From Bryoerythrophyllum caledonicum (taxonomy: Eukaryota; Streptophyta; Bryopsida; Pottiales; Pottiaceae): a DNA stretch of 64,000 nucleotides. Shown one piece after another: positions 24,383-49,044 of this stretch. Numbering within the stretch: position 1 is the first letter of the stretch; the number at the start of each line of letters is the position of its first letter. The notes under the pieces are model-generated. The model was not told the origin of the DNA. It was given only the letters and a program-made list of their open reading frames with translations, and ran no database searches. Made by a program: the position numbers and the translations under genes. The stretch is from positions 62,001 through 126,000 of the forward strand of contig OZ020524.1 in NCBI GenBank assembly GCA_963971425.1. Reading direction: 5' to 3'.

Positions 24383-25006
24383 TTAATTAAGAGGATAATA
24401 TGTGAAAAGTTCCTCTCCCACTTCAATGTCACGTGTTGCCATAGTCATGATATACCCCCAAGTTTTCGGATCCCATGGGGAAGGCAATGACACGTATTCC
24501 CAAAGAACATTCCCTATATGCTCTCTTCCAATAGAACTGTTAATAAACCCTGCGACATTTCCATTCAACACATCTCCATCTTGGTAAACATTTTTCTTCA
24601 CACGTATTGCATACTTTTAAAACCGTTGGTCTGCCTGACGCTTACGGTGGAACTCTGCCTCTGATAAGAATTTCCCAACGAATGGCAATAACTCATCACC
24701 AGATTTGGCTGCTTCCATGGCATATAGGCCCCATCCCATGTGTGGATGTGTTGACACTCTAACCTCCCACTTTCGATTCCAAAATGTGAAGGGTTTGAGC
24801 TTTGGGATGGGGCCTATGCGCCAGTGCCCATTGGAGCTCTCTGTCTGAACAATATCCACAGACGCTTGCTGGTTGGGATATAAACTACTCTCTCCGCTCC
24901 AATGAAGTGGTAGAGGGGCTAAAATTACAAATTTTAATGCAGCAGCTGCTGCGGCCAGTAGAAAAAACACCATATTCATTATATTGGGAGATTGGGAGCC
25001 TCCCAA
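24383..25006 (-). pseudogene. SET-domain protein gene with one in-frame stop
   Basis: From an ATG at 25006 (an upstream exon is possible) the frame has a hydrophobic alanine-rich N-terminus. It then has the SET opening motif VRVSTHPHMGWGLYA with the GxG-type GWG, and later GDVLNGNVAGFINSS (the N-G-N / FIN region) and RDIEVGEELFTYYPLN (GEEL..Y). TAA at 24617-24619 splits the frame; the downstream part KYAIRVKKNV continues in the same frame. SET domains methylate lysines, mostly on histones. The gene lies just outside the subterminal repeats at 24.1-24.3 kb, so it could be cargo of the CACTA element or a separate fragment. The post-SET cysteines are not seen. Confidence 0.7.
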
Positions 25007-25157
25007 AATAATATGAAAAGCTTGAGCAAACCTAAATATGCAAATGTTTAGTGATTTGCATAGTAACCTTTGAATACTATCTTTCCAGTTTGGTGTCCAC
25101 TAAAATGGGAGGTGCGGAATTATTTTCAATGTAAAATCAGGCTTGAAAGAAATTGAA

Positions 25158-25560
25158 GTACATTTTTAGCTCCAGTCAAGCTGAAAGCAAGCAACACTTA
25201 CATTTCCAAATATCATTCAAAGACAAAAGATCAAATGTCAAGGTACGAAAATGCATTTCTCAAATCGAAACACACTATCAGCTCGAGTCGAGCTGAATGT
25301 GCCCCAACAATTCCTATGCGATAAAACATTCAGAATAGCAAAGATCAAAGGGCAAATCATCAAGCCCAGAATTCACTTCTCTCCAAGAAGAAAGCCATAC
25401 ACATTCAGCTCGAGTTGAGCTGAATGTGCCCAAGCAATTCCTATGCAATAAACCATTCAGCATAGCAAATAATAAAATATCAAAACTCTGAAATGTATTA
25501 AACTCCACAAGAAATGGGTGTACACTTTCAGCTCGATTTGAGCTAAAATCACGCCAACAA
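25158..25560. repeat. Palindromic-repeat cluster I (3' of the transposase-like gene)
   Basis: Four degenerate copies of a short palindrome (core CAGCTCGAGTYGAGCTGAA) spaced about 120 bp apart and embedded in a roughly 125-bp tandem unit containing CAATTCCTATGC. They lie just beyond the end of the minus-strand gene at 25624-28479. Confidence 0.85.
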
Positions 25561-25623
25561 ATTTCGATCTTATGCACACATTCTTAGATACTAGTATAAG
25601 AGTAACATCTTTGTACTAAAAAA

Positions 25624-28479: not shown

Positions 28480-28614
28480 CTCGGCACTGCAAAATTAAGG
28501 CAAAAGTGTAAATAGTTGTCGTAGTATAATAGTACTTCAAGGTCCATCCCACATCAATCAAAGTAAACAAAATAATAGCATAATTGTTCATCTCCACGAT
28601 TAGGTGAAAACAAA

Positions 28615-28817
28615 GCACATTCAGCTCGAGTAGAGCTGAATGTGCACTGCATATTCAGCTCGGGTCGAGCTAAATGTGCAGTGCATATTCAGCTTGAGTC
28701 GAGCTGAATGTGCACTGCATATTCAGCTCGGGTCGAACTGAATGTGCACAGCATATTCAGCTCGACTGCAACTGAATATGTAGTGCACATTCAACTCGAC
28801 CCGAGCTGAATATGCAC
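28615..28817. repeat. Palindromic-repeat array II (upstream of the transposase-like gene)
   Basis: Six head-to-tail copies of a 33-bp palindrome family at about 35-bp spacing. Each half-site is close to TGCATATTCAGCTCGA, joined by a single C or G to its reverse complement. The array starts 136 bp upstream of the ATG at 28479. Confidence 0.92.
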
Positions 28818-29729
28818 TGCTTCAAGCTAGAGTACTGAATCAAAACCTGAAGCATTCATTCCAAGAAAAACTACGCATTTTGACAGTTGCAAGAACATAT
28901 ATGTCATATTGACGTACAAATAATAATATGAATCCCTAAACCAGTACTAAGGAGGCGATTATGTTGATGCCGAATTATCACCTCCTTCCTACAACTTTTT
29001 CATTACATTGAAAATGATAGTATGAAATGTGCAAACCAAATGCCAAGTAAATCACCATAAAGTTTAGATAGAAGTCACTTACAAATGGTCCGATTGCGTG
29101 CACCAAAACGTCTTGAATGAAGAAGGAAGAGAAAACCCTACTCTTTGTCACGGCCGCAGCAACCATTCACGACCACACACCTCCGCATCTCTAGAAATTC
29201 CAAACACAACTAAGTTGACCTAGAATAATGTATCCACTTCTTGCACAGAAATTCGACTTCGAATGCAATAGGTCTTTCAAATGTCAAGGCATACTTCGAG
29301 ACAGTATAGATTCACGAAGGCTTGCCGACTATTAGAAAGGTGCAAAAAGAGAGAGAAAGAGAGAGAGAGAGAGAAGAGGTTGGGGTGTATTGACCACGTC
29401 GAACAAGTTGCCGTTAAGAAAAGAGCGGGAATGACATCACGTTTGGTGGGCAGGAGCTATTCTAAATAAAGCATCTTTTAAACTTGACCAAAAAATTAAC
29501 AAGCACATAAGTTTCTCCTCATATCTTGATGCAATGGAAGTTTCTATTTACATGATCAATTTAAGGTTATCAATTGGGGTTGTGGGTATCAATTTAAATA
29601 TGCAAGAATCAATTTAAATTTAAGGTATAGAATTATGTATCAATTTAAGGTTATCAATTGGGGTTATGGGTATTTGATTACGGTCATTTATTTCCATATT
29701 AAGGATATTGATTATGACTAGATTATAAA
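28818..29729. other. Intergenic; contains a GA microsatellite
   Basis: No gene recognised. A GA-rich microsatellite lies at about 29347-29376. Short AT-rich direct repeats (TCAATTTAAGGTTATCAATTG type) occur near 29560-29660. Confidence 0.5.
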
Positions 29730-30010
29730 AGTAAAGATTTAGGTTTAGGGTTCAAATTACATTTTGACATTTAGGGTTTAGAGTTTAAGGTTTAGGATTG
29801 CAAGTCCATGGTATGAAGTGTAAATTATAGGGTTTAGGGTTTTGGACTAGACAATTCTAGAATTAGATTTATGGATTTGGGTTTAGGGTTTAGGTTCAAG
29901 GGTTTAGTTTTTAGGGTTTAAGGTCTTACAGTTTATTGTTTAGGTTTAATGATTTAAAGATTAGGATTCAGGGTTTTAGAGTTTAGTGTTTGGGGTTTAG
30001 GATTAGCGTT
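29730..30010. repeat. Degenerate interstitial telomere-like repeat (TTTAGGG type)
   Basis: Many GGTTTAGGGTTT variants in one orientation over about 280 bp, diverged and mixed with other sequence. TTTAGGG is the usual plant telomere unit, so this is an interstitial relic or a low-complexity derivative. Confidence 0.7.
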
Positions 30011-30149
30011 TAGATTAGCATCGAGATTACCACTGAATCAAAATGTCCTTTCTACAAGATTGTTTATCGTATCAAAATTGAATTGTGCCTTGGTATTGAT
30101 TTAAGAAAATTCATTACATATCACCTAAAGATAAGATTTAAGAAGTCAC

Positions 30150-32590
30150 TACACCAATAGTTTTTTACTGTAATGGCACGAATAGTGTACTTACCGTAGT
30201 ACACTAATTGCAAACAAGTTGACAAATAGTGTACTAATAGTATACTAACAAGTGTACTTTCTCAAAAGATTATTTGATCAAAATTTACTTTATCAAAGAT
30301 TACTTTATCGGAGCACACTTTATGGAAATTTAATTTGTTTAAAACTTACTTTTTCAAGAGATTTATTTTTCAAGTTTTACTTCTTAAAAAGTTTACTTTT
30401 TCAAATTTGACTTTTTCAAACATTTACTTTTTCAAAAGTATACTTTTTCAAAACCTCACTTTTTCAAAACTTTACTTTTTTCCAAGATTTCTTTTCAAAA
30501 GTTCACTTTTTCAAAAGTGAACTTTTTCAAATCTTTACTTTTTCAAATGTTTACATTTGGAATAGCTTATTTTCAAAAAAGTTTACCTTTGCAAAAGGTA
30601 AGTTGTCTTTTTTCCCCGAATTGATGTTTTTTCCTAGTTCTTGTTTTTTTCAAAAATGTTGTTTTTTCCTATTTGTTTTTTCCTAATTGTTGTTTTTGCA
30701 AAAATGTTGTTTTTTCCTATTTGTTGTTTTCCCAAATTGTTGTTTTTTCCTAATTGTTGTTTTTTCCCAATTGTTGTTTTCTCCAATTTTTTCTTTGGGG
30801 GTTTTAGTTTTTCTCTTCTTCACCTTTTTGTACACATAATTCTCTTCTACTTTCAATACACTAAACGTGCACGAGTAAAAAAGTTAATATTCCAATATTT
30901 ACAAAAGTTCACAAATAGTGTAGTAGTTGGCATTTAGTGTTATGATTTGTCACTACACTAATTGCGTAGTTGACAGGTAGTGTATGGGTTCGTATTTAGT
31001 GTCCACTACACTAAATGAAACTTCTCTGTACTTCATCTCATTTGTTATGAATCAATATTTATCCCTTGAGTTGACTTTGCAAGATGATCTTGTCTCGTGC
31101 GATATTGATTCACTTGCTATTATTAATTTATGTGTTTTATAATTCAAATCATCTTTGACCCTAAAGGCCCAAGAGTTCCCTCAAAGGATTCTAAGAATTT
31201 TTGGAAGTTCCTATAGAGTTAATTTATAAGTTTTTTGGTGTCGGCTCTAATAGGGCATCCGTATCCTTTGATCGCAACATTATACAATTGTTGCCATTAT
31301 GGACATAAGTTTGAGTGCCTTCAAAAAGTTATGATCGCAATGTTTTTTAATGTCATTCAAACATATTGCAAGTTGATGTGTAACTTTGCGCACTTGCAAA
31401 AGTTTGGTTCCATCACTCTTCCCTTTATTGCAAACGGTACTACCTTACATATGCATTCTTTCACACAAAATTCATGCGTTACATATTATACATAAGTATT
31501 TTCTACTATCTTTTCTCCCACATGAATAAGGGTCAAAGATCACATGCATATGTAAATACATTTGTTTAAAAAACTAAAGTTCATTATCTTGTACAACTAT
31601 ACTCGTATCAATATTTTCCATTGAAAACCACTACACTAAATATCACTTTTAGTATAGTGGACACTAAAAGCGAACCCGTACACTAATTGTGAACTGGGCA
31701 ATTAGTGTAGTGACAAATCATAACACTAAATGCCAACTACTACACTATTTGTGAATTCCACTTAAGATTGCAGTACAAATTTTTTCACTAGTGCACATTT
31801 AGTGTATCAAGATAGAAGAAGATTATGTGTACATTTTGAGTATAAGAAGCGACAAAGATTTAAATACATTTAGAAAAAAAACAACATTTGGATGAAATAG
31901 AATTTAGAATGGAATGAACACCAAAAATTGATTTGGAAAATAATAGATTGAGAGAAGAACCTAGATATGGAAGAAAAGTGGAATTGCAAAAATAGGAAAC
32001 ATCTGAAAATAGAAGATTGGAAAATATTGAAAATGGAAATAATTAAAGAAATAAACATTTGAATAAATATACATTTGAAAAGGAGACATTTGAAATATGT
32101 TCATTTCAAAAAATAAACAATAGAAACACAAAACTTTTTAGAAGTATATGATTGAAAAATGGAGCTTTTGAAATATGACCACATTGAAAAAGTAAACTTT
32201 TTCAAAAGTACTCTTTTAAAAAAGTGCTTAAAAAATAAAGTACTACAAAAGTAAAAGAATTAGAAAGAAAACATTTGAGATGGAAGATAGTTGAAAAAAA
32301 AAATATTTGAAAAAAATAAGGATTTGAAAAAGTAAGGGATTAAAAAATAAGGGTTAGGAAAAGTAAGGGGTTGAAAAAATAAGGGTTCGAAAAAGTAAAG
32401 GTTACAAAAAGGAAGAAGTACAAAAGTAAGGGATTGATAAAGTAAGAATTTGAAAAAGTAAGGATTTGAAAAAGCAAGGGATTGAAAAAGTAAGTGTTAG
32501 AAAAAGTAAGTGGGTGAAAAAGTAAGGGGTTGAAAAAGTAAGGGTTAGAATAAGTAAGTGGATGAAAAAGTAAGGGGTTCAAAAACAAAC
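30150..32590. mobile_element. Foldback-type element with nested inverted repeats
   Basis: The outer left arm (about 30330-30600) is a tandem of TTTACTTTTTCAAA units. The outer right arm (about 32180-32590) is the complement, GAAAAAGTAAGG units. Inner arms 30908-31017 and 31629-31755 are clear reverse complements (TTAGTGTTATGATTTGTCAC versus GTGACAAATCATAACACTAA). A unique spacer lies between. Another tandem, TTGTTTTTTCCCAA, fills 30630-30790. There is no coding capacity beyond low-complexity frames. Confidence 0.65.
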
Positions 32591-32693
32591 GACCAGAAAT
32601 AATTTTGTTGCTAAGAAATCCCCCACTGGAAATTTAATCAAGGTGTAATTTCTCAAAAACTCCAAAAAGTAGGGTCTCCCCGACTAATTTCAA

Positions 32694-32905
32694 CCCCTAA
32701 ACGTAGCAATTTTTGGAATGGATGGAGGCCCAAATCATGTCCAAAGTACACAAGAATTGGCTCACTTATTATTTGGCTATGTTTGAAGAGGATCTTACGG
32801 TTACTTTTTGAATATTTTTCTCCCATTGAGCTCTACATGGAATTTAATTTTGAGGGATTTCTGACTGTATTTCAGCGTTTCGACCCCCCCAAGGACGTTT
32901 AGGGG
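32694..32905. mobile_element. Short piggyBac-like MITE (212 bp)
   Basis: Terminal inverted repeats CCCCTAAACGT and ACGTTTAGGGG, flanked by TCAA on the left and TTAA on the right (one mismatch from the TTAA target). Non-coding. Confidence 0.6.
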
Positions 32906-34679
32906 TTAAGACAATTAAAAGAATAAAAAACTATCAAATTCTTCAATAATTATCGACATGTTCTTTGTATCAATATTGTTCCCCATTGTAATATCTTGTC
33001 TTAGCGAGGGACCCTATGTGGGTATCATCTAGGTTTTGGCTTCATTAAGTATATAGTGAAAATTGTTATATATAGAGATAAATAATGATATGATATAAGT
33101 TTATAAATATTGGTAGAGTCAATTGATAGAAATTAAATACTTGGAGGTTCATCAGGCTAATATCATTCATTCAAAGATATTCAATGTTAAGTTTATTTTC
33201 TTAAGCGAATTTATACTTAGTGATCAAGCTTCTATCATATTTTTTAAATATTTTAATGTATTTTCAAAATTATATTTTTAGATATTCAATGATTAATTTA
33301 GAAAAAATATTCAACTAACAAAATGGAAATTATTAATGACTCTTTGGATTTAAAAGATGACCTTTAAAAAGAAGTGTACAACAAGTTTAACTTTATTTAT
33401 ATTTTCATTTATCAATAGTACAATCAAATGTGTTGAAATAAAATAAAAATCATGATATAGATAATTCAAATAATGGAAATGATTTGTTGAATTTGACCAA
33501 AACAATGTAGTGTGGTTGCTTTTGTACATAATTCAATTAAAATGGATGAAAGTATAAACTTTTTGTCTAGGTGATTATCCATGTAATGTTAAGGTGCTAC
33601 CCCTATAATGCATAGGTGATACCCATGTAATACTTAGGTGAAATCCACTATGTCCAAATCATTGGGACAAAGGAAAATAATTCTTTTGACTTAGAGGTGT
33701 TGAAGCGACCACTAGGTACGGTAATGATAATCAATGATTATAAATTCTTGATCAATTGCACATTTTTTCCTTTTAGAAATCTATAGTTAAATTTCAAATA
33801 AATTTGGAGTCCTATTGTCCAACCGTAGGAATTTGATATATCGTAGGAATAAACAATGATCATTTGAGGTAGCTTTGATATGATTGAAGAACCTTCAATA
33901 TCAAAATCAATGACTTATTGCATCATACTACTAAAATCATAATCCTCGCAGTGAACCACGCAGCGATCAATCGCGCAGTCAACCGTGCAGTGAACTATAG
34001 GAGCGATATAGTCAACCGCGCAGCTAATTGCGCACCCAACCGCATAGTGAATCATGTTACTTTTTTTAAAATATAGTTTGTAATATATAAAAATACATTA
34101 AAATAATTGGACTCATGGCTTGCAAAGCATTAGCTTGAGTTTTTGGGTGTGACAAATTTGCATTTGTGTGTTGCAATTTGTGCTCTTGATTTCAAATTTG
34201 ACGTTCAAATTTTTTTTTTGGTTAAGCACTAAAAGATTGAATTGTAAATGATGAGTTGTAAACTTGGAGTAAAAAAGTTGTGAAGATGGAGTTGTGATCT
34301 TGGAGGTTGGCATACAAAGTTGGAGTTGCAAAATTGCATATTCGAGTTGTAGAGATTGAAATTACAAATTTTTTATTTGTAATTGCAAGATTTGAGATTG
34401 TAATTGCAAATTGAGTTTGTGGATGTGTGAAATTGAGATTGTAATTAAAAGTTGAATTTGTGGGTGTGTGAAATTTGCATTCGTGTGTTGCAATTTGTGC
34501 TTATCCAAAATAAATTTGAAACTCTTGATTACAAATTTGACGTTCATAACATTTTTGAAATTCCATGTTAAAATGCAAAAAATCTAAAACCTAATTTATT
34601 TTTTTCTATTCTATTCTATTACATTATTAAAACTCGTGCATAGGTTTCAAAGACATATTTATATTTTACGTAGATTGTT
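32906..34679. other. AT-rich DNA with short repeats, no gene seen
   Basis: No supported gene. Short units around AACCGCGCAG repeat at about 33950-34050. Segments near 34068-34210 recur near 34460-34760 in the same orientation, indicating an old tandem duplication with Helitron-end-like sequence. Confidence 0.5.
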
Positions 34680-34768
34680 GTTACCTTTTTTTAAAATATA
34701 TTTTGTGATATAAAAACTACATTAAAATGGTTGAACTAACGCGTTGCAAAGCAAGCGCCAACTGCTAG
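34680..34768 (+). mobile_element. Helitron-like 3' terminus (tentative)
   Basis: The sequence AACGCGTTGCAAAGCAAGCGC contains a short stem (GTTGC/GCAA) and is followed after about 6 nt by CTAG|T, matching the hairpin plus CTRR end of Helitrons. No RepHel gene or 5' TC end was found. A degenerate version lies near 34120. Confidence 0.35.
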
Positions 34769-35225
34769 TATGTATTTGAAAATACAATCTCATTAATGAA
34801 GTTTCGTTTCACAACAGATTAGGATTCTCAATCCATGAAAGATATTTGATAGTTTTCAAAATTAGATTTTTAATTTGAAGCCCCCTCATCCAATCACTAG
34901 ATTCCAATCTACTTAGATATTTATTTAAACTCACTATTTTATCCATGATATTGCCATTAGGCCAAAATCTATGCATGTCTTTTAAATAATATTAATTGTT
35001 TTGAACATATAAAAACTTTGGAATTATATTTTTGGTTTTTATATATGTGCTATCACAAAAAGAAGAAGATTAAATATTGCAACTCAATTGTTTAATCATA
35101 AATCTTCCAAAAACAAGAAATTAAAAAAAAAATATTGTATAATCCCAGTGTCTTTGATTTGCGTTCACTATAGGAAGTTTTTGAGTATGATATATACAAG
35201 CCTATAGAGTAGGTGCAAAATGTAT

Positions 35226-36154
35226 ATAACACTAAAGGACCAGAGTCTCCTTCAGGGGGATTTCTGATTTTGGGCAGGTTCCTAAAACTCGAAAAAAAAT
35301 CTTTCTTCTCTAAATTTTTTATTCTAGATTGCCTCTCATAAGAGCTTCGTAGACATATTTTTATTTTATTTTTTGGATTTGTGGTTTGAAAGTTAGTACC
35401 ACTTAAAGCCAAAAGTGGGAACACCGGGCACCTCCAAATTTTTTGACAAAAGTTTCTATTGACATTGAGATTTTTCACACATATAAATAATATTTCCTTT
35501 TTCGGAGATTTTCAATAAAAAATCTTGTCTTTAGTGTAAAAAGGCATTTTATTCCAAGTCAAACATTTTCACACATTGTCGGGCAACGGAGGAAAAAAAC
35601 TTCATCTTTTCTACATAAGACCTAGAGATCTTCAAATTTTTCACTTTTTATTTTTTCAACAACAATATGTGGTGAAAACCTTCTTATTGACCGTTTGGAT
35701 TATCATTTGAATACATACGTAGTTCACAAAAAAATAAAACGTGAAATGGCAATCATTGAACCTCCACTCCTTGCACACTTGTTTTGAATATGCTACACCC
35801 CTTTTCTACCTCTAAAAATTGGTGTGTTGGGAAATAACATCATGCTTAAGACAATGGTAAAAGATTTAGACCTTGTACAATGCAAAAATATGATACAAAG
35901 TGAAGTCAAAGTCTGCTGATCTACTCAACGCAAGGAAGAAAATGAACCATCGTTTTGACTTTAAACACTAAAATCTATCAATCTGTACGGTGGATTGCAA
36001 CCAAAAGTTTAAGGCATGTTTATATGGAAGTCTATTTTAAAATCTTACGGTTGAAAATCCAAAATTCACTTTAAAATGTGATTTTCATGTCTCTTTTTGG
36101 CAGTGGCAGTTTTGGACCGGTTTTAGAGCGAAAGTGGTCGTGGTCCTTTAGGGG
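35226..36154. mobile_element. piggyBac-like non-autonomous element, copy B
   Basis: The right end is TGGTCCTTTAGGGG followed by TTAA (36155-36158). The left end is ATAACACTAAAGGACCA, a degraded inverted match. Internal sequence is similar to copy A at 3.9-4.2 kb. Non-coding. Confidence 0.6.
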
Positions 36155-36158
36155 TTAA

Positions 36159-39128
36159 TACATATATTCATTTAAAACGTAGAGGTTGGAGACCCTCTCT
36201 ATTGATACAGTTGAAAATCAATTAAATGATTGTTGTTTAGCTTTTCATGAGGTTCTACAAAGACTTGACTTGTAGTGGAAATAGGCATGAAAGAATCGAA
36301 CTAAGTTGGGATGGAGTGAAAGGAAGTGGTCCTTAATTCTATTTCCTATGGGTGTGGTCTTATTTCCATTGACCTCACTCAACCCCAACGCCGTCGATCA
36401 TACAATGCCCGTCGTTGTACTGAAAAGGTAGATACTACTCGTTCTAGGCGTGGTGACGGCTTTGAATAGTCATTGACTCTGAGAGCCAGTCGCCGAGGTG
36501 TGGCCAAAACCCAAAACCGCAGGGCTAGACACATAAGAATTCATTAGAAAAAGAACCTTGAAGACATGCACATTCGATTTTGGTTCCTTTGGAGGAAAAA
36601 CATCCCAAAATCCCATAAACCAAACGGAAAATTCTAAATGAATGGAATAAGCGGGCCCCACTTTTTCATTTGTAGACTACCTAGACTTGAAAAGCTATGG
36701 TTTTGGGTGCATGATGGGTTTAGGTGTCGACCACAGAAAGTCTACCAGCTGGCTCATCTCCACAACATGGATGAAAATAAAATTGGGTAGAATTGTTTCC
36801 TCCCTCCATATATGCACATTGCTTAACCCTATAAGGCCGATGAGCTTTTTTAGCCTCGAAGAATCTACGAGTGTTCTAAATCATGCAGAATAACATCAAC
36901 ACCACAAGGTACATAACATCAGAACCCCCACTCATGGAAATCATTGTCGCTAGTCTACGCTTGCACCAATATTCGCGGAGATTGTCGGAATAGATGCCCA
37001 TCTTCTTCCACCTCATTTTCATAGTTCAAGTCTTTAGAAGTTGCTAATGAGATTATGGAAAGAGGACCCGAAATAGGCCATAACTTGTCGGTTATGAACG
37101 GGTGAGGGAACAATGGGAATCATGAGAACAGAGAAGGAAGCGATGCGAATAGCGAAGTAGACTGCCTCCATATCAACCGGGTATCAACCGGGTATTATAA
37201 TATCAGAATAGTATCTTGTCTAAAATAAGAAGAGGACAACGGATGTGTACACTAGTCTTGTACATATCAGCCGAGAAGTGTGCATTGTAAACCACCAAAG
37301 ATTCTTTGTGCTCTCAAACGCAAGGAAATCATTGCACTATATAGTGTCCTCTTCATGACTAACACCTAATCGGGAGATACCCGTTTAATACCCTGATCAC
37401 ACCCAGGATGCGCTTATGATACTCGGTTGATACTAGGGAGGTGTTAGTGACAAGAAAACAATGTTGTAAACCTGGGAAGGCTGGCTGTACAAACATGGAC
37501 ATGTTGTGTCTATCGAGATTCGATCACATGCAGCTTTCACTGGTTCTGTAAGTGTCGGTGACTGCACGAGTATCACCCAGGTATCTCAAGGTCTCAGACT
37601 AGTATCAATTGTGTAGACCTAGATATCAGCCGAGAGGACTCATTTTGGCAACAAATAATCATCGCTACTCTGGTGTTGATACTTGATAATTACCTCTGCC
37701 ACCTTTTGCTGGAAAATGAAAGGAACAAATTTGGGAATAGGCGAGGGAACAGTGCAAACGGCGTAGGACAAGAGGCCGGAGGGAGACGAAGGGAGTCCCT
37801 TTTCATCTTCTTGCGTGCGACGCCAAAGCGCAGGCGCACCACCACATAGCCACAGATCCATCGCCGCACGCCATCAGGAGGTAAGCCTGCGCCGAGAGGC
37901 CTGTGAGTTTGAAGTTTGAGGTTTCGTGGGATCGCTGGTTTTGTGGTTTAGGTTGATCGCTGGTTTAGGGTTGATCGCTGGTTTCGTGGAATCGCTGGTT
38001 TAGGCTGCTCTAGGTTAAGTGTGTTTCGGTTGTTGGAAGCAATATGGCAAAAGGAGGCCGTGTTGGATTGAACAGAGAAGAAAGGAAGGGTGCCTTAACC
38101 AGGAAGTCTTAGTCTCGAAAAGTGCCCTACGTCACGGTTTGAAAGCGCGGTCACTTCTTGTCGGCAAACGCGTCTGTGGCGTGAGCGCTAGCATATTGAG
38201 CATCCATGAACTTTCTATTTATCTCCTGCGCCTCGCACTCTCTTGCTCACGGACGTGAAATCTCTCTCTCGATGTGCTTAATTATTCCAGGGAACGCTCT
38301 TGACACTAATTAACACTTAATTAAACTAGTTGCGAACAACTGTCGAGGTGCGGTTGCTGATCGTTTCTTTGCGGGGCGCAATCGTAGGATTGCAAGCACT
38401 TCGGGAAAGCTGAATTCCGACCTCCTTGGTAGCACCGTCGCAGTTTCCCCTCTCGGCTACCGCAACACGGAGTGAGAATGTGGACTTTCATGTCATGATT
38501 TGTTGTCGAGAGTCATGTGCGTGACTGTGACTTACGAAGTGGGGTACAAATGATTCACAGATTCAAACTGAGCGCAGGAGCAAGGAAAGAAACGTGGCCG
38601 GTACGTGTCGAGAGGCGCGAGGATTGCTTGCAGCTTCTCTCGAGATCGACGACATCGACCAGTCTACATTTCGACAGACCGACAACAATCGCCACCGGAT
38701 GTTATAACACCGATTGTGCAGACACCGATACCAGGTAAGCATTTGCCTACATACAGACAACAAATTTTTCTGTCATGCCGGAGGTGCACACCTTGTACTC
38801 ATGTGTTGATGCTACATGAAAGTCAATTTTATTGTGGAAAACTAAAATTCACAAGAGAAATTCTCAGCAGCTCAGCTGATGTGTACTAGCTTGCTGTGTA
38901 ACGTTGCATTCTTTTAGATTACCAAACAGTTTGACAGTGCACAATGAATACTTCATGTCCTATGTTATTCAACTTCTCAAACTTGTTTGAGCTACGGAAG
39001 AAAACACTTGTGATCATTTGCATGCGTTTCTTACTACAGCCATCAATTTGTACTAGGCCTGCCTTTTATTGTCACCATGTTTGTCTCATGAAACTACTTC
39101 AACTCATGTTGTTAGTCAAGATTCTGCG
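36159..39128. other. Intergenic region without a supported gene
   Basis: Imperfect copies of a GTATCAACCGGGTAT-like motif occur at 37.18-37.63 kb. A GC-richer stretch at 37.75-38.7 kb contains possible splice sites (AG|GTAAGC at about 37880 and 38736) and could be leader or upstream exons of an SR45a-like gene, but the expected first half of the RRM was not found. Confidence 0.4.
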
Positions 39129-39132
39129 TTAA

Positions 39133-40272
39133 CCCCTAAAGTCGAAATCGACCAGAATGTGGTCGCACTGTTTTCGTATTATCGTCAATATGTTTTATTT
39201 TTCAGGTGGTCGAATGCCGACTGGTGGTTGACCCACGCACACACGAGTCACGAGGTTTTGGCTTTGTGACTATGGACAATGCTGATGATGCTGATCGCTG
39301 TGTGAAGTACCTCAACCGGTCCACTCTTGAGGGACGCATTATAACTGTTGAGAAGGTCCGTTTCTGTGTCGTGAATGCCCTGAACTCAGTGTCGTCCCAC
39401 CCTTTTGAAACTTGTCGAGTCAAAGCGTCAGCTATTGAATGCTTCTGAGATATGGGGTTAGCCACTCTTGTCACGGATGGCTGGCTCTCAGTTACTAAAT
39501 TTAGATCGTACAAAGTTACAATTTTAGAAGATTGTAGAGTTTTCCCATACCTTTAAAATGACACCATTCATGCTTCAAAATTCCTCATACTTTAGGAGAT
39601 ATTCACGGTCAAAGTTTGAAAACACTGTTAGGGCATGCTGAAATCTGCCCAAAACTGCGGTATATGCTCATTTATTCTCAAAATCTGCCCAAAATCAATT
39701 AGATCGCAGTAACTCCAAAAATTCACCAAAAATTGAGATTTTACTTTTTTTCGAATTTTGTTTTTCGTACATGTAAAAGAGGTAGTAAAGCATGATCTCA
39801 CCGTCTGGATTTTCAATCCGATAATTTTTTACATGCCTTTTTAATTGTTGAAAATGGGCATTTGTATTTGTATTTCAGCATACCTCCATGTGAAAAATTA
39901 AGCATTTCTTTAGGTTTTACAGGTCCTATGAGGGTAAAAATTATACGGAAATATTCCTTACTCACATAGGAACAAGAATTTGAAGAGCCTCATGTCAAAT
40001 TTCCTTTCAAAATTGGTTTTTTTGGCCCCCCAAACATTAGTTTTCCATTCTACAAGGAAAAAATCTTTTTTTTCAACTTTGAACATTACGATCTCACAAA
40101 TGGAGAGGAATTTGAATCTAAGATTCGGTATGCATGTACATGTACAAGTTAGGTACTAGATCTTACGGTTACATACTCGAAAATTTGTCAAAAGTTAAAA
40201 ATATTCACCTTGCATTGAAAGAGGGCAGTTTTGAGGGTCTTTGGCAGTTTTGAGGGCTTTCGACTTTAGGGG
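39133..40272. mobile_element. piggyBac-like element, copy C (1140 bp, intact ends)
   Basis: Perfect 15-bp terminal inverted repeats CCCCTAAAGTCGAAA and TTTCGACTTTAGGGG, directly flanked by TTAA on both sides (39129-39132 and 40273-40276). TTAA target duplication and CCC-starting ends are hallmarks of piggyBac elements. There is no transposase. The element encloses an RRM exon near its left end. A stretch AGTCAAGATTCTGCGTT just left of the element recurs about 45 bp right of it (about 40321-40337). Confidence 0.75.
39206..39355 (+). pseudogene. SR45a/Tra2-like RRM exon (isolated)
   Basis: A 150-nt open exon of 50 codons preceded by TTTTTCAG and followed by GTCCGT. It encodes VVECRLVVDPRTHESRGF and on through RGFGFVTM (RNP1), DADRCVKYLNRS and LEGRIITVEK, the second half of the RRM of plant SR45a / transformer-2-like splicing factors. 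The first half with RNP2 is not found in the 2 kb upstream, nor are RS repeats downstream. The exon lies 73 bp inside a TTAA-flanked element, so it may be a captured gene fragment. The alternative is that it belongs to a gene running across the region. Confidence 0.8.
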
Positions 40273-40276
40273 TTAA

Positions 40277-41106
40277 GTGTACGAAAGTCTCTGCAGTACT
40301 CAGCAGTACGAAAGTTGTGTCAGTCAAGATTCTGCGTTGGTTTCACCTTCATTATTTTCAGCTCTTCATGTCCAGTTTTGAACCCTGTTGTTATGTAAAT
40401 GACGAGTTGTATTGCCTGGTATTTGCTTGATCTGGCATGCTCCCACTGTTTGTGAATGTTAACTGTAGAGACTTAATGTTAACTGTAGAGACTTAGGGTA
40501 CACTAATTTTAGGTTTTCATATGGTCTTTGTTCTCATGCTAACAGAGATGGATGCCAGTTTGCACTGGGATTAACAGATGGATGCCAGTTTGCACTGGCG
40601 TATGGAAAGGGGTGAACGAATGGGCACTCGTATAATCCTGAAGGTCCATATCTGTTAATTCCTCCATCTACTGCTTTTATTCGAGATAGTACTGATTAGG
40701 GTATCTTCCGTAGAGTTGCTGGAGAAAGTTCAGTATTGAAGCCTTGGAGGGGAGGATGAAGGCTTCTTTCTTTGGTTGCAAGACAACGCTCATCCGCGCG
40801 CAGGCAGTATACGAGTTCACCTTGGGATGAAATCCTTGTGATGTTGTAATTTTTTGTAAGTTGGGAGTTGGTAGGTTTTCAAGTTGTAGAGTTTTGGCGA
40901 CTCATCTTAGTTTTGAGTTTCAAATAGTGATTGGATTACGATTCAAAGAGGGGACATTTTGTCACTGAAGCAGCTCCTTTGTGTGACATACCTCAAGCCA
41001 TTTGTTTGAAGATTCAAGAGGCTCTAAAGAATGGAAACCAGGTAGGTAGACTCCTACGGAACTTGCAATTTGAATGAATTTTGTAATTTCTCATTCATAT
41101 AATTAG
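40277..41106. other. Intergenic; short tandem duplications
   Basis: No gene recognised. Two small tandem duplications: a 21-bp unit TGTTAACTGTAGAGACTTA.. near 40457-40498 and a unit containing GATGCCAGTTTGCACTGG near 40550-40600. Confidence 0.5.
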
Positions 41107-41826
41107 TGCATATTCAGCTCGAGTTGAGCTGAATATGCACAATTGGTTGATCACGAGGTGCATATTCAGCTCGGGTAGAGCTGAATGTGCACGTGTAGTT
41201 TTGAATGATGTGCATATTCAGCTCGGGTAGAGCTGAATGTGTACGTTTAGTTTTGAATGATGTGCATATTCAGCTCGATTCGAGCTGAATGTGCAACATA
41301 TGATGAGCTTTGTGTGCACATTCAGCTCGGGTAGAGCTGAATGTGCAGTGTATGATGAGCTTTGAGTGCACATTCAGCTCGACTCGAGCTGAATATGCAC
41401 CTCCGGCTCATTAGTATGTACGCAAATGATTTATCATAATGTGCACATTCAGCTAGAGTTGAGCTGAATGTGCATCTTAATTTCAGCTATGTGTGCATAT
41501 TCAGCTCGACTCGAGCTAAATATACAGTCTCATGAGCTTTCTGTGCTCATTCAGCTCGACTCGAGCTGAATATGCACGTTCATTTCATTAGTTCCTGGGC
41601 GTTATATTAATATTGATCAGCACATTCAACTCGACTAGAGCTGAATGTGCACGGTAAAATAGGCTTTGTGTGCATATTTAGCTCAAGTCAGGCTAAATAG
41701 GCAATAGAAATGGTAAAATACTTCACACATGCAAGTGGTAATACAATGCTTAAAACTTTTTGACGAAACCACACCTGTGCAATTAAACGTTGTATTGCAT
41801 ATTCAGCTCGACTCGAGCTGAATATG
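41107..41826. repeat. Palindromic-repeat array III (upstream of the ParB/methyltransferase-like gene)
   Basis: About twelve copies of the same palindrome family as at 28.6 kb, separated by 20-70 bp of unrelated spacer. Some are near perfect (41107-41139). The centre alternates C or G, and the outer ends vary (CATATTC versus CACATTC). The last copy ends about 80 bp before the ATG at 41908. Confidence 0.93.
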
Positions 41827-43348
41827 CATACTTGAGAAAAAACTATAATGCATTAAGTACGCATAGTCAAATCTGACTTCACTTATGGACTCCACTGCAG
41901 AAATCCAATGAACGACGAAGAGGTCTTGGAGCAATACTATAAACCCACAAGTATTGTGATCGAGTCCGACGACGGAGAGGAGCACGAGTTACTCAACTGT
42001 TACGAGCTTCGAGATCCAGAGAGGCATGAGGCGTGGGGGTTCGAACATATCGGTCACTCTAATAGCATGGTGTTGACTCACAAATTTCAAGGCATGGATA
42101 TGTTCTTGCACGTTTCACCGAATGAGAAGATAATCGAGTTTGACCACCACAAGAAGTTCCTCGTAGTTAAAAGTGAGACGACAACTGAAAGCAGACTTCA
42201 ATACACGGTTCTCATCGACTGCATGACTCAAGTCTTCAGCCTTGATCCATTTCTCGACAGTATTGAGAACTCAATGTTTGAGTCGATAAAGAAGGACATC
42301 CTCAAACAACAGGACGAAGATTACTGGAAGAGCAACACTGGTGGGCCTCTTCGCGCTAAAGCTTTGTCATCAAAGTTGACAAGTCTCCTCCATGCAATGG
42401 CGATGAAGGTTCTTCGAAACTCGCAGACCTCATCCGAGATGACTCCGGTGAAGGTCTCTCGTAGGACCGAGAGTGGCAACGTTAGCCAAGGCGGTAACAC
42501 TGGACAGAGGACTGCAGCGGCTCGAATTGGCAAGGTTAATCCGAGGAAGTCGTTGTCTACAGACCCAACGCCACCGAAGAGGCAACGTCGATCACTTGCT
42601 CCGGAGGCTCCAACTCGAAGAGCACTAAAATCTAGTGCAAGAAACCAAGAAGTTGGTAAGCCAGACGTTGAGGCCAGCATCGTCTCTGCGATCACCGATC
42701 TGCCCCACGAGTTGCGTCCTGGAGAAGCCATTGATTACGGGAATGCATCCGAGGTGTACAAAAAGTTTTGGACAGATTGATAGGACTGCTTCCTCTACGA
42801 CCCCGACATGAAGAAGGAGCTGGACGTGCGGCAGTTATCACCAGCTCCAGAGGACTGGACAATTTGGGCCTTTGAGAAGAAGGGCATGGATGTGATAATG
42901 AATTACCTCATCCACATGCCCGATAAGTCCATCAAGCAGACGCTTTGCGTAATGCCGATAACAAACGAGAAGCCTGATGGAGACTGGGAAGACATTCGAA
43001 AGGGGAAGTTCTACATCATAAATGGCCAACATAGCGTGGCGGCAAGCTTAGCGATGATGGCGGATGAATCTATTGACGAGACCACAGTGAGGCACTTTCG
43101 AGTGTGGAAGTGCTTTGTCGTATGGTCCGATGACAAAGAGAAGCTGCGTAAGATCTCGGCATTCTACAACCGAGTCAATCACTTGTCCATCTTCAAGCCA
43201 ACGTGGTCGACCAACATCCTATCTGCACGGTCGACATGGACCAATCTAGGTCGCCCAACACCACCATAGAAGAAGAATACGCCGGGTGGCCGTGGAGCTC
43301 CAAGAGCCAACAACAAGGCATATAAGGTTAGCAATCCTGATTGAGATT

Positions 43349-43424
43349 GCATATTCAGCTCGACTCGAGCTGAATATGCAAACCTTTGCGAATGCATATT
43401 CAGCTCGAGTCAAGCTGAATATGC
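43349..43424. repeat. Two palindromic repeats inside intron 1
   Basis: Two copies (43349-43380 and 43393-43424) inside the 154-nt GT...AG intron 43327-43480 of the methyltransferase-like gene. They make up about 40 percent of the intron. Confidence 0.9.
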
Positions 43425-44869
43425 ACACCTATGTCAACAATTGTTCACTTTTACTAACACTATCGTTTTGCCTCTTGTAGGAGTTCATTGAGGCCATTCA
43501 ACGTCGGTTTGCCTACATTGACGTTGCAAAGAACCAGCAGTACGCTAGCAAATCTAGTCAGGTTCCTCATCTGGCTCTCTCAAATGAGGTCAAGATTATC
43601 ACGTCGCCTGATTCTACTTTCAATCTCTGGCGAGATGTGATGGCCGCAAGTGCTCAAGGCGACTTGATTGACGTTGACACCAACCCCCTTTGTAAATTCA
43701 AAGACAACCTGAAGTCGACGACAACGAAGGATGGTGGTCTGAATCGAGAGTTCTTTAAGTGGCTCAATGGCCTCACTGATGCAGATCATGTGAAGTTGTT
43801 GAACCACATTTTGAACCGCAGCGGACCAAAACGTTGACTCCAGTACCCAAAGGTGGTCATCAAGACACCAACCAACGTATTGGATAGTAACTACACGGCT
43901 TTGGAATGGATCGAGCGGCGCAAGAGGAAGAACGTCGTCCGTAGGGAGTTGCAGAAACTAAAGCCTAGTCTTGCATTTTTTTGATCCAAACAAAAATTTT
44001 GTTTCCGGAAACTGGAAGCGTTTTAAGCGTGAATATCACGTCTCATCCGCAACCATGAGGGTGCTTGTCGATCCACCTGGTGAGGCATTCTTCACTGAGG
44101 CGCGACAGCTTTGGAGCAAGAACAAGTCTGCGGAGGAGCTATCGCCGTACGCGAAAGCTTGGTTTAAGTTGTTCTTGGACAAACGCCAACACTTTGAAGA
44201 AGCGTCCGGGTCCGCATACATCCGGAAGTACAACATCATCAATGATGCGTTGGGTGTGTGGCCCGAAAACACATGGGATCCCCGCGGCGAAAAGCCTCGG
44301 CTTGGATTGATCGATTTCAGATCAGCTCCCGGGCAAGATTTGAAGCCATCATCAACGGTGGCTAACCCATTCTTCAAGGACTTCATGGAGGCATTGCGGG
44401 CTGGAGGCAGCCCTGGACTGACAGACCCAGATGTCTGGCTATGGATTTGTGGGACCAAGACAGAGGAGAGGCAAGTCTTCTCCATAACCGAGAAGTCCCC
44501 ATTTGTGGACGAATACGTGTCATATAGTTCCGCATACATTCCTGGTAAGTATGAGCGGCTCGATGATCTGCCGTTAGGCAACAGGTTGTCGAAAGATTCT
44601 GTGGAACTTCTTTGGCTAGTCCGTAAGCCATTATCTCGCCCTAACTTAGTTACAAAGGAGTATGTCTATCCGCTTCATGTTGCAAACACCAAGGCCCGCA
44701 AGTACAACGAGTTGGAGTATCGTGTAAACACTACTGAGTTCACGATGGAGTTCTACTTTCAAGTACTCAAAGAATGGTGCAAACCCGGGGACTTAGTCTT
44801 CTCTGCCTTTGGAGGCTCAAAGTTTCTTATTGCATCTATGGTAAGAATTTCTGCCGAGCTCTCCTGTTT

Positions 44870-44961
44870 GCATATTCAGCTTGACTCGAGCTGAATATAC
44901 AAGTGCTTCTCGATCATCAGTTCTGAGTTGCATATTCAGCTCGAGTCGAGCTGAATATGCA
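44870..44961. repeat. Two palindromic repeats inside intron 2
   Basis: Two copies (44870-44901 and 44930-44961) inside the 203-nt GT...AG intron 44841-45043, which interrupts the motif I region of the methyltransferase-like gene. Confidence 0.9.
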
Positions 44962-46293
44962 AGTAGTATAGTTTCATGGAATGCAATTATATGTCGCTTG
45001 AGTTAGTTTGATTGATTGCCAATGTCTCTGGTGTGCCTTGCAGATCGAATCTCTAGGGTGTGCCTGCATCTGCGAGACTTCTGAGAGTGATCGGTACGAA
45101 AGCAAGGCCAAGTTGGCTTTGTCTCTATGCAAAGCGGATTTCGTTGCCGATGGTTATCCAGTTGACGAGACAAAATATCCTGTTAAGCCCCCTCGTGGTA
45201 AGGGTAAGGGAAAGAGACGAGTTGATGACGATGATGATAATGAGGAAGATGATGATGAGCAACCTACTGTGGATGTTACGAGGTCAGATGTTGCGGTAGC
45301 TGAGCCATCGGACCCCGCTTCTGTTCGCGTTAATGAAGGCGCAGATACTGGTGCATTTTGTGCGAATGATTATGAGGATCTTGCTCTTCGTCGGTCCAGT
45401 GTGATTGCAGGTGGTGCTGGTCCATCCAACAATCGGTCGCAAAGTAGGGCTGATTCCTCAGATGGAAATACTGAGGATGACGTTGAAGTGATGGCTTCTG
45501 CACCATCGCCCCCGCACAAGCGCCAACGAACTCCTGTGACGGTTAACTCGCCCGTGCTATCGACGTCCCCTCCCACTACACAAGCCGATATGGCATTGAA
45601 GGTCAAGATGCTCTTAAAGAAGGTCGAGGAGCAAGAGAGGCTCAACCAAGAGTTGTCAAGACGGCAGGAAGAGCGCCAAGATGAGCTCCTTGCAGCGCAG
45701 AGAGCCGACATGGAGCGGACACACAAGCGATGATCACTTCTATGTTTGCAAGGTTTGAACAGATGTTGCCACCGCAGTCCAAGCCGATAGAGCACATTTT
45801 AGATGCAACTCCTGAGACGGCTGAAGGACCATCGTCTCAAGGCCCTCTTGTTATAGAGACGGTCCCCTCGTTTGGAGTGGCGTCTGTCCAACAGTCTTTG
45901 CTGACATCGGATCCAAAGACGTCTTCTCCTCTTTCACCGCCACAAGCGATAGCCTATGTTGGAGGCGAGCGCATGGTTTCCGCCGATCCCAGTGTTTAGT
46001 CAATCAATGTCTTTCCCGTGGAAGAGACAGAAGTTGCTAATGAAGTCAGCACGCCGAGCAACAATCAAGCATCTCCAAAACACTCTTCAGGTGGAATTCT
46101 CGATGAGAACTAGTATATCGAGTATTCTTGTTGTTGTTAATTTTGTTTCTCCAGTAATTTTCGTACATTAACTTCTGTTGTCCTCTTTTAAGACTACACT
46201 TAAGTTGAATTAAATGTACTGCAGATAAGTAGTAGTATATTTCTCTCTGTTTTGTTACGTTCAGTCCTTCTCCTAAAGTCATTGTTACTTCTA

Positions 46294-46326
46294 TTGCATA
46301 TTCAGCTCGACTCGAGCTGAATATGC
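46294..46326. repeat. Perfect 33-bp palindrome
   Basis: The best example of the family: half-site TGCATATTCAGCTCGA, a central C, then the exact reverse complement. It lies between the methyltransferase-like gene and the FCP1-like gene. A degenerate relative sits near 46433-46456. Confidence 0.95.
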
Positions 46327-46539
46327 ATTACTTTCTGTATATCTTGTTGTTCTCCCTCTGTGTGCATCATGTTGAAATTCAAGTTGTCTTCTCCCTTGTG
46401 TGCATCCAATTGTTGCGTACTCATACACTTGCACAATCAGTTAGAGTCGAGCTGAATGGTGATCATGTTTAGTATCAAGTGTCGTTGCATTTTTGGGGCA
46501 TGTTTTTCATAACCTATAATCAAATTTGCTGAATTTCAG

Positions 46540-48435
46540 ATGCCCTAAGCCTCGAAGTCGATTTCATAAAAGATGATGCTGGCTCTTCTCAAAATCCTCC
46601 TATGGTTGGTGCAAAGCCCATTGATGCTACTATGGCCATCAACTCACAGGTATAACTTTAATCTCACCACTTCATGGCCAAAAAGATTGTGCTGTCTTTT
46701 GCAGTGCTTCCTTCTTCGTATTTTATTATGTGCTCTATTGTTATATGATGTTTAATGTTTAGTAACATGTACCTCCACTCTTTCCCATCTGAATTCCAGG
46801 TGGTCGATCCTCTGGAGAGCGTTCATAGCGTCGTAGTCCGTGTTCCTCGTTCAACCCCTAGAGTGGTCAAATCATGGTTAAACATTGTGTTTGACTTGAA
46901 CGGTATATTGTGTGTGTGCGAGGAATTCCGCTTGAGGTCTGCTACGCAAGCCTTCAATGCATGTTCTCTACCACACTCGGTAAAAGTTCCAGCCAAGGTT
47001 GGCCCAAAGCTAGTGTATGTTCGTCCAGGCTGCAAGGCATTTTTGGACGCTGTTTCCAAGTTTGCATCGATATCGGTCTGGAGTTCAATGAAATTTGGTC
47101 GTTCGACAATTTGCTCGGATCCATATAGCTTAGAGTACATGGAATTAACGCACGCGATTATGATATCTGACGGGCTCGCAAATTAGAAGTTCTCTGGTAT
47201 CAATTATAAATGTGTTGATGTGTTATACTATACATATCTTGTAAGTCAAGTGGCAGTTGCCAGTTCTTTGATATTTAATTGTAATTTTTCGTTTGTTATT
47301 GTTGGATTTGTAAGTATTTGTTTTCTCTTTGCTTCCATGTTTGAAAAAGAGCCGTTAATCATTTTCTCATGTAAACTGTTGTATTGCCACCGTGGATTCT
47401 GTTTTGAAGTCAGAAGATTGTGGATATCGAATTCCACGTAAACATAATGATTTGTACTCCCGTGGAGTAGTTGATTATTCGATGGACTCTTCGATGGCTC
47501 TAGTTGAAGAAGATGAAGTCAACAGCCCCCCACCTAAATTTTGCATTCGAAAGGTTGCCTCCCGTTCTATTCTTCAACCTCATCAAATTTTGGGGTCCTC
47601 CGGTGTTGATGGGATTTGTAGGAAAGGTGACCAAGTGCTTGTTCGCGGACGTGAGGAATCATTGTCTCTTTCCCCGCGTAGCATGGTATTCCCCCCCTCC
47701 CCTTCTCTGTATTTGTCCGAGTTCTTTTTTGGCAATGTGCACATTCAGCTCGAATAGAGCTAAATATGCACAAGTTGCATTTTAACTCTCTTTGTCCCTA
47801 CGTCATTGGATCACGCACTTCAAACACTTGCTGGTGTAATTCAACCACCTACGACGGTGCCATCAGAGAAAATGCCCACAATTCCTACTACGTGTCGGCC
47901 TCTTGCAACAGTCGGAAATGATGAGAACAAGCTCCAATCTCTAAGTGGGAAAACGCAGTCTAATATTGAGGTTGGTCTTATTTTTTGTTATTGTTTAGTA
48001 TGTGTTGTATCTTCTCCTCTTAATCATCACTGTTTTGATTTTGCATGTTTTACAAACATCTAAATTGGACATAATTATTTGAATGGATTCCACGTCATGG
48101 TGTTTGTGTTTTTTTGACATGTATGGCTACATATTTAGCTTGGTTTTAGCTGATTTTGTGGTCTCTTTTGCTAGGTGCTTCAACCAACTATAGAGCGTCA
48201 AAGTGCTTCCCCAAAGCATGGTTTAAACCAAAACTCAAAGCGTCACTCTCGCCGTCGCCACTCACTTCCTGTGCCTATTGTTACTTGGAATCAACGAATG
48301 CAACGCCCACGACTGCAAGAACATATACGTGCTAGTCAAATGCCATATACCGGTTACAGCCGCAAAGATGAACTTCAAAGGGGTCGAGATGAGCTGAGGA
48401 AATCTAATTCGGGTGACGTGGAGAAAAACAAGTAG
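46540..48435 (+). pseudogene. FCP1/CTD-phosphatase-like multi-exon gene (probably truncated)
   Basis: Proposed exons: about 46540-46649, 46800 to about 47126 or beyond, about 47400-47695, about 47810-47970 and 48175-48435 (ends TAG), with GT...AG junctions at most borders. Exon 2 reads IVFDLNGILCVCEE, then LVYVRPGCKAFLDAVSKFASISVWSS, the front half of an FCP1 homology (HAD phosphatase) domain. The catalytic DxDxT is DLNGI here, so the second aspartate is absent. The rest of the phosphatase fold (the K and late DD motifs) was not found. Later exons are Ser/Pro-rich, then basic (RHSRRRHSLP). The intron after about 47695 holds a palindromic repeat (47737-47770), and another lies just after the gene (48460-48492). 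Exon structure is tentative. Confidence 0.5.
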
Positions 48436-49044
48436 ATTTATGATCTGAGTGGTACAAGTGCACATTCAGCTTGGCTATACCAGAATGTGCATTGACTAGG
48501 AATTAATGTGTATGTTTTTAGTCGTAGTAGAAGCCTTTTTCTACATGGAAAGGATGATGCATGTTTTGAATATGGATTACTTCTATCATATTATAAATAT
48601 AGTCTGCAATTAAAGATATTATTTCATTTGATTCTCCAATTTGGGTACTGTTTGCCGATACATCTTCACATTATCTTACAAAAATGATGTTGTACTTCTA
48701 TTCTACGGTAAAATATTTGGATTATTCAAGAGCGTGTACCTCCTAAATCCCTGGAAATCTCCCAATGTAATGAATATGGTGTTTACAACTATTCCTAATC
48801 TTAGGCTAATTTGATCTACAAGAAATCCGGAGGATCTTATCCCTAAAAATCCGGAAAAAGAGAATCTCAGATCCTATTTTCCCGGGTCCGGATTCCGGAC
48901 ATCCGAAAAATACGCAGAAGTCCGGAAATTTCCAAAAAGGTCTTAGCTTCTGGATTAAGTAGCCGGGTGCAACTCTAAGCACCATTGTTAATTGCTATCT
49001 TATCTCGATCACAAAGCTATTCCTACTTCTAAATCTAAGCCTAT
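48436..49044. other. Spacer with CCGGA-rich 3' flank of gag-like copy B
   Basis: From about 48830 to 48960 the sequence is rich in TCCGG/CCGGA, as in both gag-like elements. It is probably the 3' flank of the minus-strand element. No gene seen. Confidence 0.45.

Follow-up and report, generated by a model that had tools for sequence, protein, structure and literature searches.

A DUF7869 transposon of Bryoerythrophyllum caledonicum with a divergent gene for a predicted ParB-like/methyltransferase-like pseudo-enzyme and with palindromes as its putative docking sites

The window, i.e., the whole stretch of 64,000 nucleotides that was analyzed, corresponds to C12:62001-126000 (OZ020524.1) in the 437-Mb assembly of Bryoerythrophyllum caledonicum (GCA_963971425.1). 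Its positions 24966-48783 form one copy of a DNA transposon of about 23.8 kb with terminal inverted repeats (TIRs), which belongs to a family with 4-bp target duplications and many copies in the assembly. The gene that the original prediction had described as transposon-like, with a GQH motif of ParB type joined to a DNA methyltransferase (MTase)-like domain of permuted order, is one part of this element of about 24 kb, which pairs a DUF7869 gene with the divergently oriented gene of a protein of about 1,280 amino acids; its transposon-like character is thus borne out, and the reading as a stand-alone gene is rejected. The palindromes and the other parts of the element lay outside that prediction. 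In all the subfamilies read, the usual residues are replaced at the positions aligned here with ParB GxxR, with MTase motif IV and with the start of motif I. Taken as a whole, the best explanation, with a chance slightly better than even, is that of a DNA-binding pseudo-enzyme which would license its own transposon and would work like VANC of Arabidopsis.

The limits of the element are given by two other copies, A_C14 and B_C2 (contigs C14 and C2), which align block by block with the window from 24965/24966 to 48783, where the alignments end; outside the element, the search with these copies matched the window solely at 3760-4219 (about 72%). A perfect 4-bp target duplication is found for A_C14 (ATGG) and for B_C2 (CATA); for the window copy, a matching duplication was sought at both ends and none was found. 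Since the three copies share their ends, with a TIR pair there and duplications in A_C14 and B_C2, the whole is one transposon. The TIRs recur genome-wide with at most 2 mismatches (1135 + 1120 sites; control, 0).

B_C2, among other copies, keeps the DUF7869 gene open over 956 aa. Among the DUF7869 places scored (57 of 4827 candidates, set against 129 of 129 MTase-exon rows and 69 of 150 ParB-exon rows), a ParB or MTase exon lies no more than 40 kb away in 44 cases, of which 43 show the divergent orientation, and the median distance is 15 kb. DUF7869 co-varies too, C_C10 having an N-terminal piece that is 52% identical. A NIF/FCP1-like gene follows the ParB-MTase gene in the window, where its upstream exon (46541-46650) was recognised by eye, and also in B_C2 (281-aa open frame), C_C10, C_C15, D_C7 and E_C6. 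The phosphatase motif of NIF/FCP1 proteins is DxDxT; the present protein reads DLNGI at that position.

The palindrome TGCATATTCAGCTCGACTCGAGCTGAATATGCA and its variants flank the ParB-MTase gene on its 5' and 3' sides, occur in each of its two introns and surround the DUF7869 gene. They share a 15-nt palindromic core, AGCTCGANTCGAGCT, which recurs in three distant subfamilies, and their arms are subfamily-specific: the commonest 3-nt arms beside the core are TTC in the window, A_C14 and B_C2, TTT in three C copies and E, and ATC in D. Palindromes with arms of at least 11 (one mismatch allowed; C_C10, D_C7 and E_C6 covered in part) number 16 in the window, 22 in A_C14, 19 in B_C2, 22 in C_C10, 5 in D_C7 and 4 in E_C6, and 14, 20, 19, 20, 5 and 4 of them, respectively, carry the core. 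Markov shuffles, three per copy, give 0 to 2 palindromes each. Core sites with at most 2 mismatches are absent from the coding sequence of the window (0/27), B_C2 (0/24), C_C10 (0/32) and E_C6 (0/14); D_C7 has one coding site out of 15, which becomes intronic once the donor is placed at 10836. The intron sites recur in B_C2, C_C10, D_C7 and E_C6; the core is kept while the introns are otherwise dissimilar.

The same sites are met genome-wide: TTYAGCTCGASTCGAGCTRAA has 4,583 exact occurrences and its reversed control none. Many of the listed TIR pairs have a spacing of 163 or 237 bp. Twelve such small elements, i.e., miniature inverted-repeat transposable elements (MITEs), were taken, seven of them chosen with the palindrome inside already known and five (L050-L052, L057, L058) by their TIR pair alone. 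The latter five all hold a core site (one exact, four with 1-2 mismatches); over the twelve, 8 sites are exact and 4 have 1-2 mismatches, and 11 elements have a perfect 4-bp target duplication. By short-word BLAST, only the TIRs and the palindrome are common to MITE type L048 and its parent. Among the 50 listed palindrome places, 11 are isolated (no other listed place within 20 kb), and all 11 lie, by eye, 52-134 bp from a TIR of the element. Sites in both promoters, in the gene's own introns and in minimal derivatives suggest a protein recognising its own transposon; the palindrome is probably the docking site, still putative, of the ParB-MTase protein.

The structure of this gene agrees with what was first described. 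The open reading frames (ORFs) and the strings KFYIINGQHSVAAS, VLVDPPGEAF, WLWICGT, LLWLVRKP and KPGDLVFSAFGGS are all present in the window, and usable GT/AG sites exist at the proposed junctions 43326/43481 and 44840/45044 (in the stretches scanned, intron 1 has a single donor and a choice of two acceptors spaced by three bases, and intron 2 a single donor and a single acceptor). The intact relatives that had been called for exist: B_C2 (1282 aa) and C_C10 (1255 aa), spliced in silico at these sites, join without interruption. The window copy itself is decayed, with in-frame stops at 42778-42783 (TGA TAG), 43267 (TAG), 43835 (TGA) and 45997 (TAG) and frame changes near 43985 and near 45.7 kb.

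At least 129 matches to the MTase exon, many of them without stop, and at least 150 to the ParB exon are found in the host genome; these are lower bounds, as 128 of 1321 and 150 of 1526 candidates, respectively, were scored. The 129 exon matches speak strongly against chance. Ten MTase-exon matches that are free of stops tie in score, each being 94% identical to the window, which suggests a recent spread; the transposon apparently multiplied recently. Subfamilies C, D and E are more distant, with 37-43% identity to B_C2 in exon 1 and 44-56% in exon 2 (one 26-aa piece at 69% left out). The ratio of nonsynonymous to synonymous substitution rates (dN/dS) is 0.04-0.37 for B_C2 vs. A_C14 and 0.08-0.21 between C copies, and for C_C10 vs. 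C_C15 it is 0.14 in the ParB region, 0.08 in the linker and 0.13 in the MTase exon; the ranges cover these pairs, and dS was saturated for B-C pairs. The coding sequence is under purifying selection. It must be noted that contig C1 (65 Mb) holds 54 of the 129 MTase-exon matches, where its length would predict 19, and by eye many of the 54 contain stops; C1 may be a non-recombining or sex chromosome.

In beta-class MTases, motif IV is (D/N/S)PP(Y/F/W) and motif I is DPFxGSG-like. VLVDPPGEAF, first taken as motif IV, is rejected as such: DPPG is private to the window copy, the other nine of the ten best MTase-exon loci (all A/B) reading DQPG, while subfamily D reads EQPG and C and E read DWGP. 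The position of motif IV is more probably that of IDFR..PG, which precedes a conserved helix and a WLWI/WLFI strand in A/B, C, D and E; the exceptions to this pattern are decayed copies (no pattern match in L004 and L008, a stop inside in L005). At the position of motif I, subfamilies A-E read SAFGGSK, SAFVSSK, QLFCGTK/QLFGGTK or QLFAGTK, and nothing DPFxGSG-like is met. In line with the early suspicion of altered catalysis, the residues of motif I and of the presumed motif IV are replaced across A-E, and catalysis looks lost.

The predicted homology to beta-class MTases rests on the motif X-I segment. This end (KPGDLVFSAFGGS...) spans the exon 2/3 junction and aligns with beta-class MTases; the A-E profile, compared by hhalign with five plant MTase-like sequences and four phage MTases merged, gives P 1.7e-4 in the X-I register, and none of 60 column shuffles scores as high. 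The five plant sequences, as a set, themselves align with the four phage MTases (P 5.5e-16). In the same genome, more distant repeat lineages match PF01555 at 84 of 150 places scored; 8 matches are over the cut-off, all at profile positions 163-219, i.e., the X-I end, and lineage G (L036) reaches E 3.9e-7 to PF01555 and 2.5e-5 to DpnA. None of the 84 places coincides with the 129 MTase-exon places (one is 13.6 kb away). L034-L040 are other repeat families with PF01555-like MTase ends, and L034 has a WDGNHR ParB-like ORF together with more canonical DQPF and VVDLNAST.

Pfam profiles recognise neither domain of the present family. PF01555 has no match at E<=10 in the window ORFs or in the A-E members, and the Pfam check proposed earlier turned out negative for both ParB_N and N6_N4_Mtase. 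The six pieces of the gene in the window have no match in Pfam (E<=10) or PHROGs; of the seven window ORFs that were scanned, none but the downstream ORF matches a Pfam family (NIF), and its PHROG match (E 0.28) is meaningless. Perilipin_2 matches (E 0.0013-0.0029, below cut-off) were discarded as without meaning. Against the PDB, neither sequence nor profile searches gave a result, the best match of the MTase profile being PRMT7 (E 1.2, X-I register). Phages searched with the window MTase ORF gave nothing beyond two matches at E 2, and viral contigs gave no match by protein or by palindrome.

On the ParB side, the presumed P-motif position reads GQHS in A/B, C_C10, C_C3 and E and GQHN in D, in place of GxxR; lineage F of the same genome has GNHR (WDGNHR) ahead of an MTase. 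The candidate ParB assignment is made by motif, by order and by published parallels, not by a profile match. The GQH segment compares strongly (P 3.4e-9) with a second, divergent ORF of E_C6 (IIGGQHT). This second ParB-like gene lies beside the E-type element in the stretch G000:C6:12378000-12397999, on the minus strand at about 14.6-17.2 kb of it. With lineage F, the hhalign score is borderline, 27.5 where 40 shuffles reach 25.2 at most, and a ParB link through lineage F alone is rejected. Against the PDB, the best match of the ParB profile is a Csm4 chain (E 0.021), which we ascribe to chance, and nothing meaningful was found by sequence or profile; phages searched with the lineage F ParB-like ORF and plasmids searched with the C-type ParB region gave no result. 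The original fusion is thus retained in its general picture, GQH and the X-I end included, but not in its motif IV.

As the presumed GxxR, motif IV and motif I residues are replaced, both active sites look lost while the protein is conserved; GQH and IDFR..PG are themselves kept across subfamilies. With the catalytic residues gone, binding itself is likely the function, through open chromatin or as an aid to transposition. We infer that the protein would be a ParB-like/MTase-like double pseudo-enzyme with the palindromes as predicted binding sites. Probably as a dimer, it would occupy the promoters of the two genes, the introns of its own gene and the MITEs, and the element would stay expressed or mobile despite host silencing; alternatively, the bound protein may assist the assembly of the transposition complex. 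The more detailed version, a little short of an even chance, is that: (i) the double pseudo-enzyme derives from a bacterial-type ParB-methyltransferase; (ii) it recognises parS-like palindromes, which the element has spread to its promoters, to the introns of this gene and to its MITEs, and licenses their expression or transposition by binding, not by DNA modification; (iii) arms and subfamilies diversify together.

Several points weigh against this explanation. Full-length or long stretches were read for 10 copies beyond the window. The MTase homology does not extend beyond the X-I segment, and in global alignment P is 0.5 and 0.89 against the plant and the phage set taken separately and 0.0018 once they are merged. 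PF02195 (ParB_N) has no match genome-wide at E<=1, whereas 11 of 14 control genomes match. Besides the GQHN of D, a pattern search for GQH found none in C_C15. AlphaFold2, run in single-sequence mode on two window ORFs, gives a predicted local distance difference test (pLDDT) of 34 and 32 (32 for ParB). Motif loss does not prove loss of activity. Finally, transposase-binding sites would likewise predict palindromes in MITEs.

The last point leads to the main rival, according to which the palindromes would be binding sites of the DUF7869 transposase, like the subterminal repeats of En/Spm, the ParB-MTase protein being otherwise employed. This is unlikely. In its favor, L048 keeps from its parent just what is expected of a transposase site, DUF7869 co-varies too, and a few sites are close to the ends, less than 0.5 kb away on the left and less than 1.1 kb away on the right. 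However, 17 of the 27 window sites are 5' of, in the introns of, or just 3' of the ParB-MTase gene, where their distance is 2.5-7.7 kb to the right end and 16-21 kb to the left end, and the recurrence of intron sites in four other copies also argues against it. An active amino-methyltransferase, which would mark its own transposon with N4-methylcytosine (4mC) or N6-methyladenine (6mA) at or near the palindromes, is improbable: the X-I homology, the purifying selection on the MTase exon, the more canonical motifs of L034 and an architecture identical to that of the reported Ectocarpus gene (see below) are in its favor, but the residues at the positions of motifs IV and I are replaced in A-E. 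It is very improbable that the gene is a captured passenger useless to the element, with palindromes spread as ordinary tandem repeats, since dN/dS is low in B-A and C-C pairs, B, C, D and E all have a NIF-like gene downstream and the core persists in introns that otherwise differ, even if stop-bearing copies are common and the palindromes are partly in tandem arrays.

Sola1 DNA transposons make 4-bp target duplications, and duplications of this length are found here; the transposase-like gene is known here by its DUF7869 match. Concerning the combination of domains, the original prediction held it to be unusual in a plant nuclear gene. According to PMC12477816, it is already reported in eukaryotes: Sola1-1_Ec32 of Ectocarpus is a 21.5-kb giant DNA transposon with a 1104-aa ParB-like + DNA MTase protein encoded opposite the transposase; green and red algal cases are cited, and self-modification of the transposon is suggested. 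Both elements are large DNA transposons with ParB-like and MTase parts in one protein, antiparallel to the transposase. Set against Sola1-1_Ec32 as described there, what differs here is the streptophyte host, the replaced residues at catalytic positions and the palindromes in promoters, introns and MITEs; the term 'palindrom' has no occurrence in the main text of PMC12477816. ParB-methyltransferase transposon genes are thus known from algae, as far as this source goes, and the present family is of the same kind in a streptophyte. The literature listings consulted (titles and starts of abstracts, subscription papers being mostly out of reach) gave no palindromic sites of a ParB-MTase transposon and no land-plant or streptophyte case; as far as they show, what is new here are the changes in the catalytic motifs and the system of palindromes.

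In phages, ParB-N6_N4 methyltransferase fusions are associated with mobile elements, and a ParB fold loses NTP binding when the Arg of GxxR is changed to Ala (PMC12704722). The present family shares with these fusions the domain combination and the association with mobile elements; it differs by GQHS/GQHN and by having no Pfam-recognised domain. In Arabidopsis, the VANDAL transposable elements (TEs) encode the anti-silencing protein VANC, for which binding and hypomethylation were shown; its motif YAGTATTAY is repeated in introns, ahead of the transposase gene and elsewhere in the non-coding DNA, with variants following subgroups and with tandem-repeat growth (PMC5735166). The likeness to this account is that of a TE protein with repeated short non-coding motifs, own introns included, variants by subgroup and tandem-repeat growth. 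The protein is, on the other hand, unrelated (DUF1985/DUF287 for VANC), the motif is another one and the present system is known from sequence alone. Pfam on the ORFs of the element gives DUF7869 and NIF only; a MuDR-type transposase, DUF1985 and DUF287 are absent from the matches. The element would thus work like VANC without being a member of the VANDAL/VANC family.

Table 1. Coordinates, in the window, of the transposon and of its features.
Feature	Position	Strand	Remark
Whole transposon copy, about 23.8 kb	24966..48783	.	Two other copies end at the same positions
Left TIR, 28 nt	24966..24993	+	27/28 match with right TIR
Two palindromes 3' of DUF7869 gene	25272..25430	.	
DUF7869 gene (transposase-like)	25627..28479	-	One in-frame TAG; Pfam DUF7869 E 1.2e-41
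Six palindromes in 34-nt tandem array, 5' of DUF7869 gene	28615..28815	.	
Palindrome array, 12 sites, 5' of ParB-MTase gene	41106..41828	.	
ParB-MTase exon 1	41908..43326	+	3 in-frame stops
GQHSVAAS	43024..43047	+	Presumed P-motif position (ParB GxxR; R replaced)
Two palindromes in intron 1	43345..43425	.	
ParB-MTase exon 2	43481..44840	+	One stop and one frame change
IDFRSAPG, conserved strand	44310..44333	+	Presumed motif IV position, without (D/N/S)PP(Y/F/W)
KPGDLVFSAFGGSKFLIASM	44781..44840	+	Motif X-I end
Two palindromes in intron 2	44870..44964	.	
ParB-MTase exon 3	45044..46113	+	Last part of the MTase-like domain, with an acidic tail resembling a coiled coil; broken in this copy
Palindrome between ParB-MTase and NIF genes	46292..46330	.	
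NIF/FCP1-like phosphatase gene fragment	46541..47186	+	Internally deleted; Pfam NIF E 7e-7
Two degenerate palindromes near right end	47739..48490	.	
Right TIR	48756..48783	-	

Other features of the window and of the assembly were observed. Directly left of the transposon, an En/Spm-type element (19044-24287; Transposase_21, E 1.3e-65, and DUF4218) has its own TGACTA..TAGTCA-like repeats, and an ORF across the left end of the transposon (24620-25099, minus) is SET-like by eye, Pfam having found nothing. Matching 269-aa ORFs in opposite orientation (5362-6168 and 10550-11356) suggest a long inverted repeat, and a SINA/SIAH-like zinc-finger ORF was recognised by eye at 14078-14752 (minus). Contigs C821, C894 and C590 hold two different rbcL sequences of green type, with 457 aligned identities between C821 and C894; this points to a second plastid source or a transferred copy in the assembly. 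One of the two types was compared with the PDB and has land-plant Rubiscos as its best matches, ahead of Chlamydomonas; the reading of the host as a streptophyte comes from it.

For the suspected class of ParB-methyltransferase accessory proteins of transposons, this family supplies a concrete candidate target sequence together with numerous natural variants, both of the protein and of its site, so that simple binding assays could test whether such proteins act on the transposon that encodes them. The system may be a second parallel to VANC anti-silencing, evolved independently of it, and perhaps also an instance of catalytic domains put to new use as DNA-binding modules.

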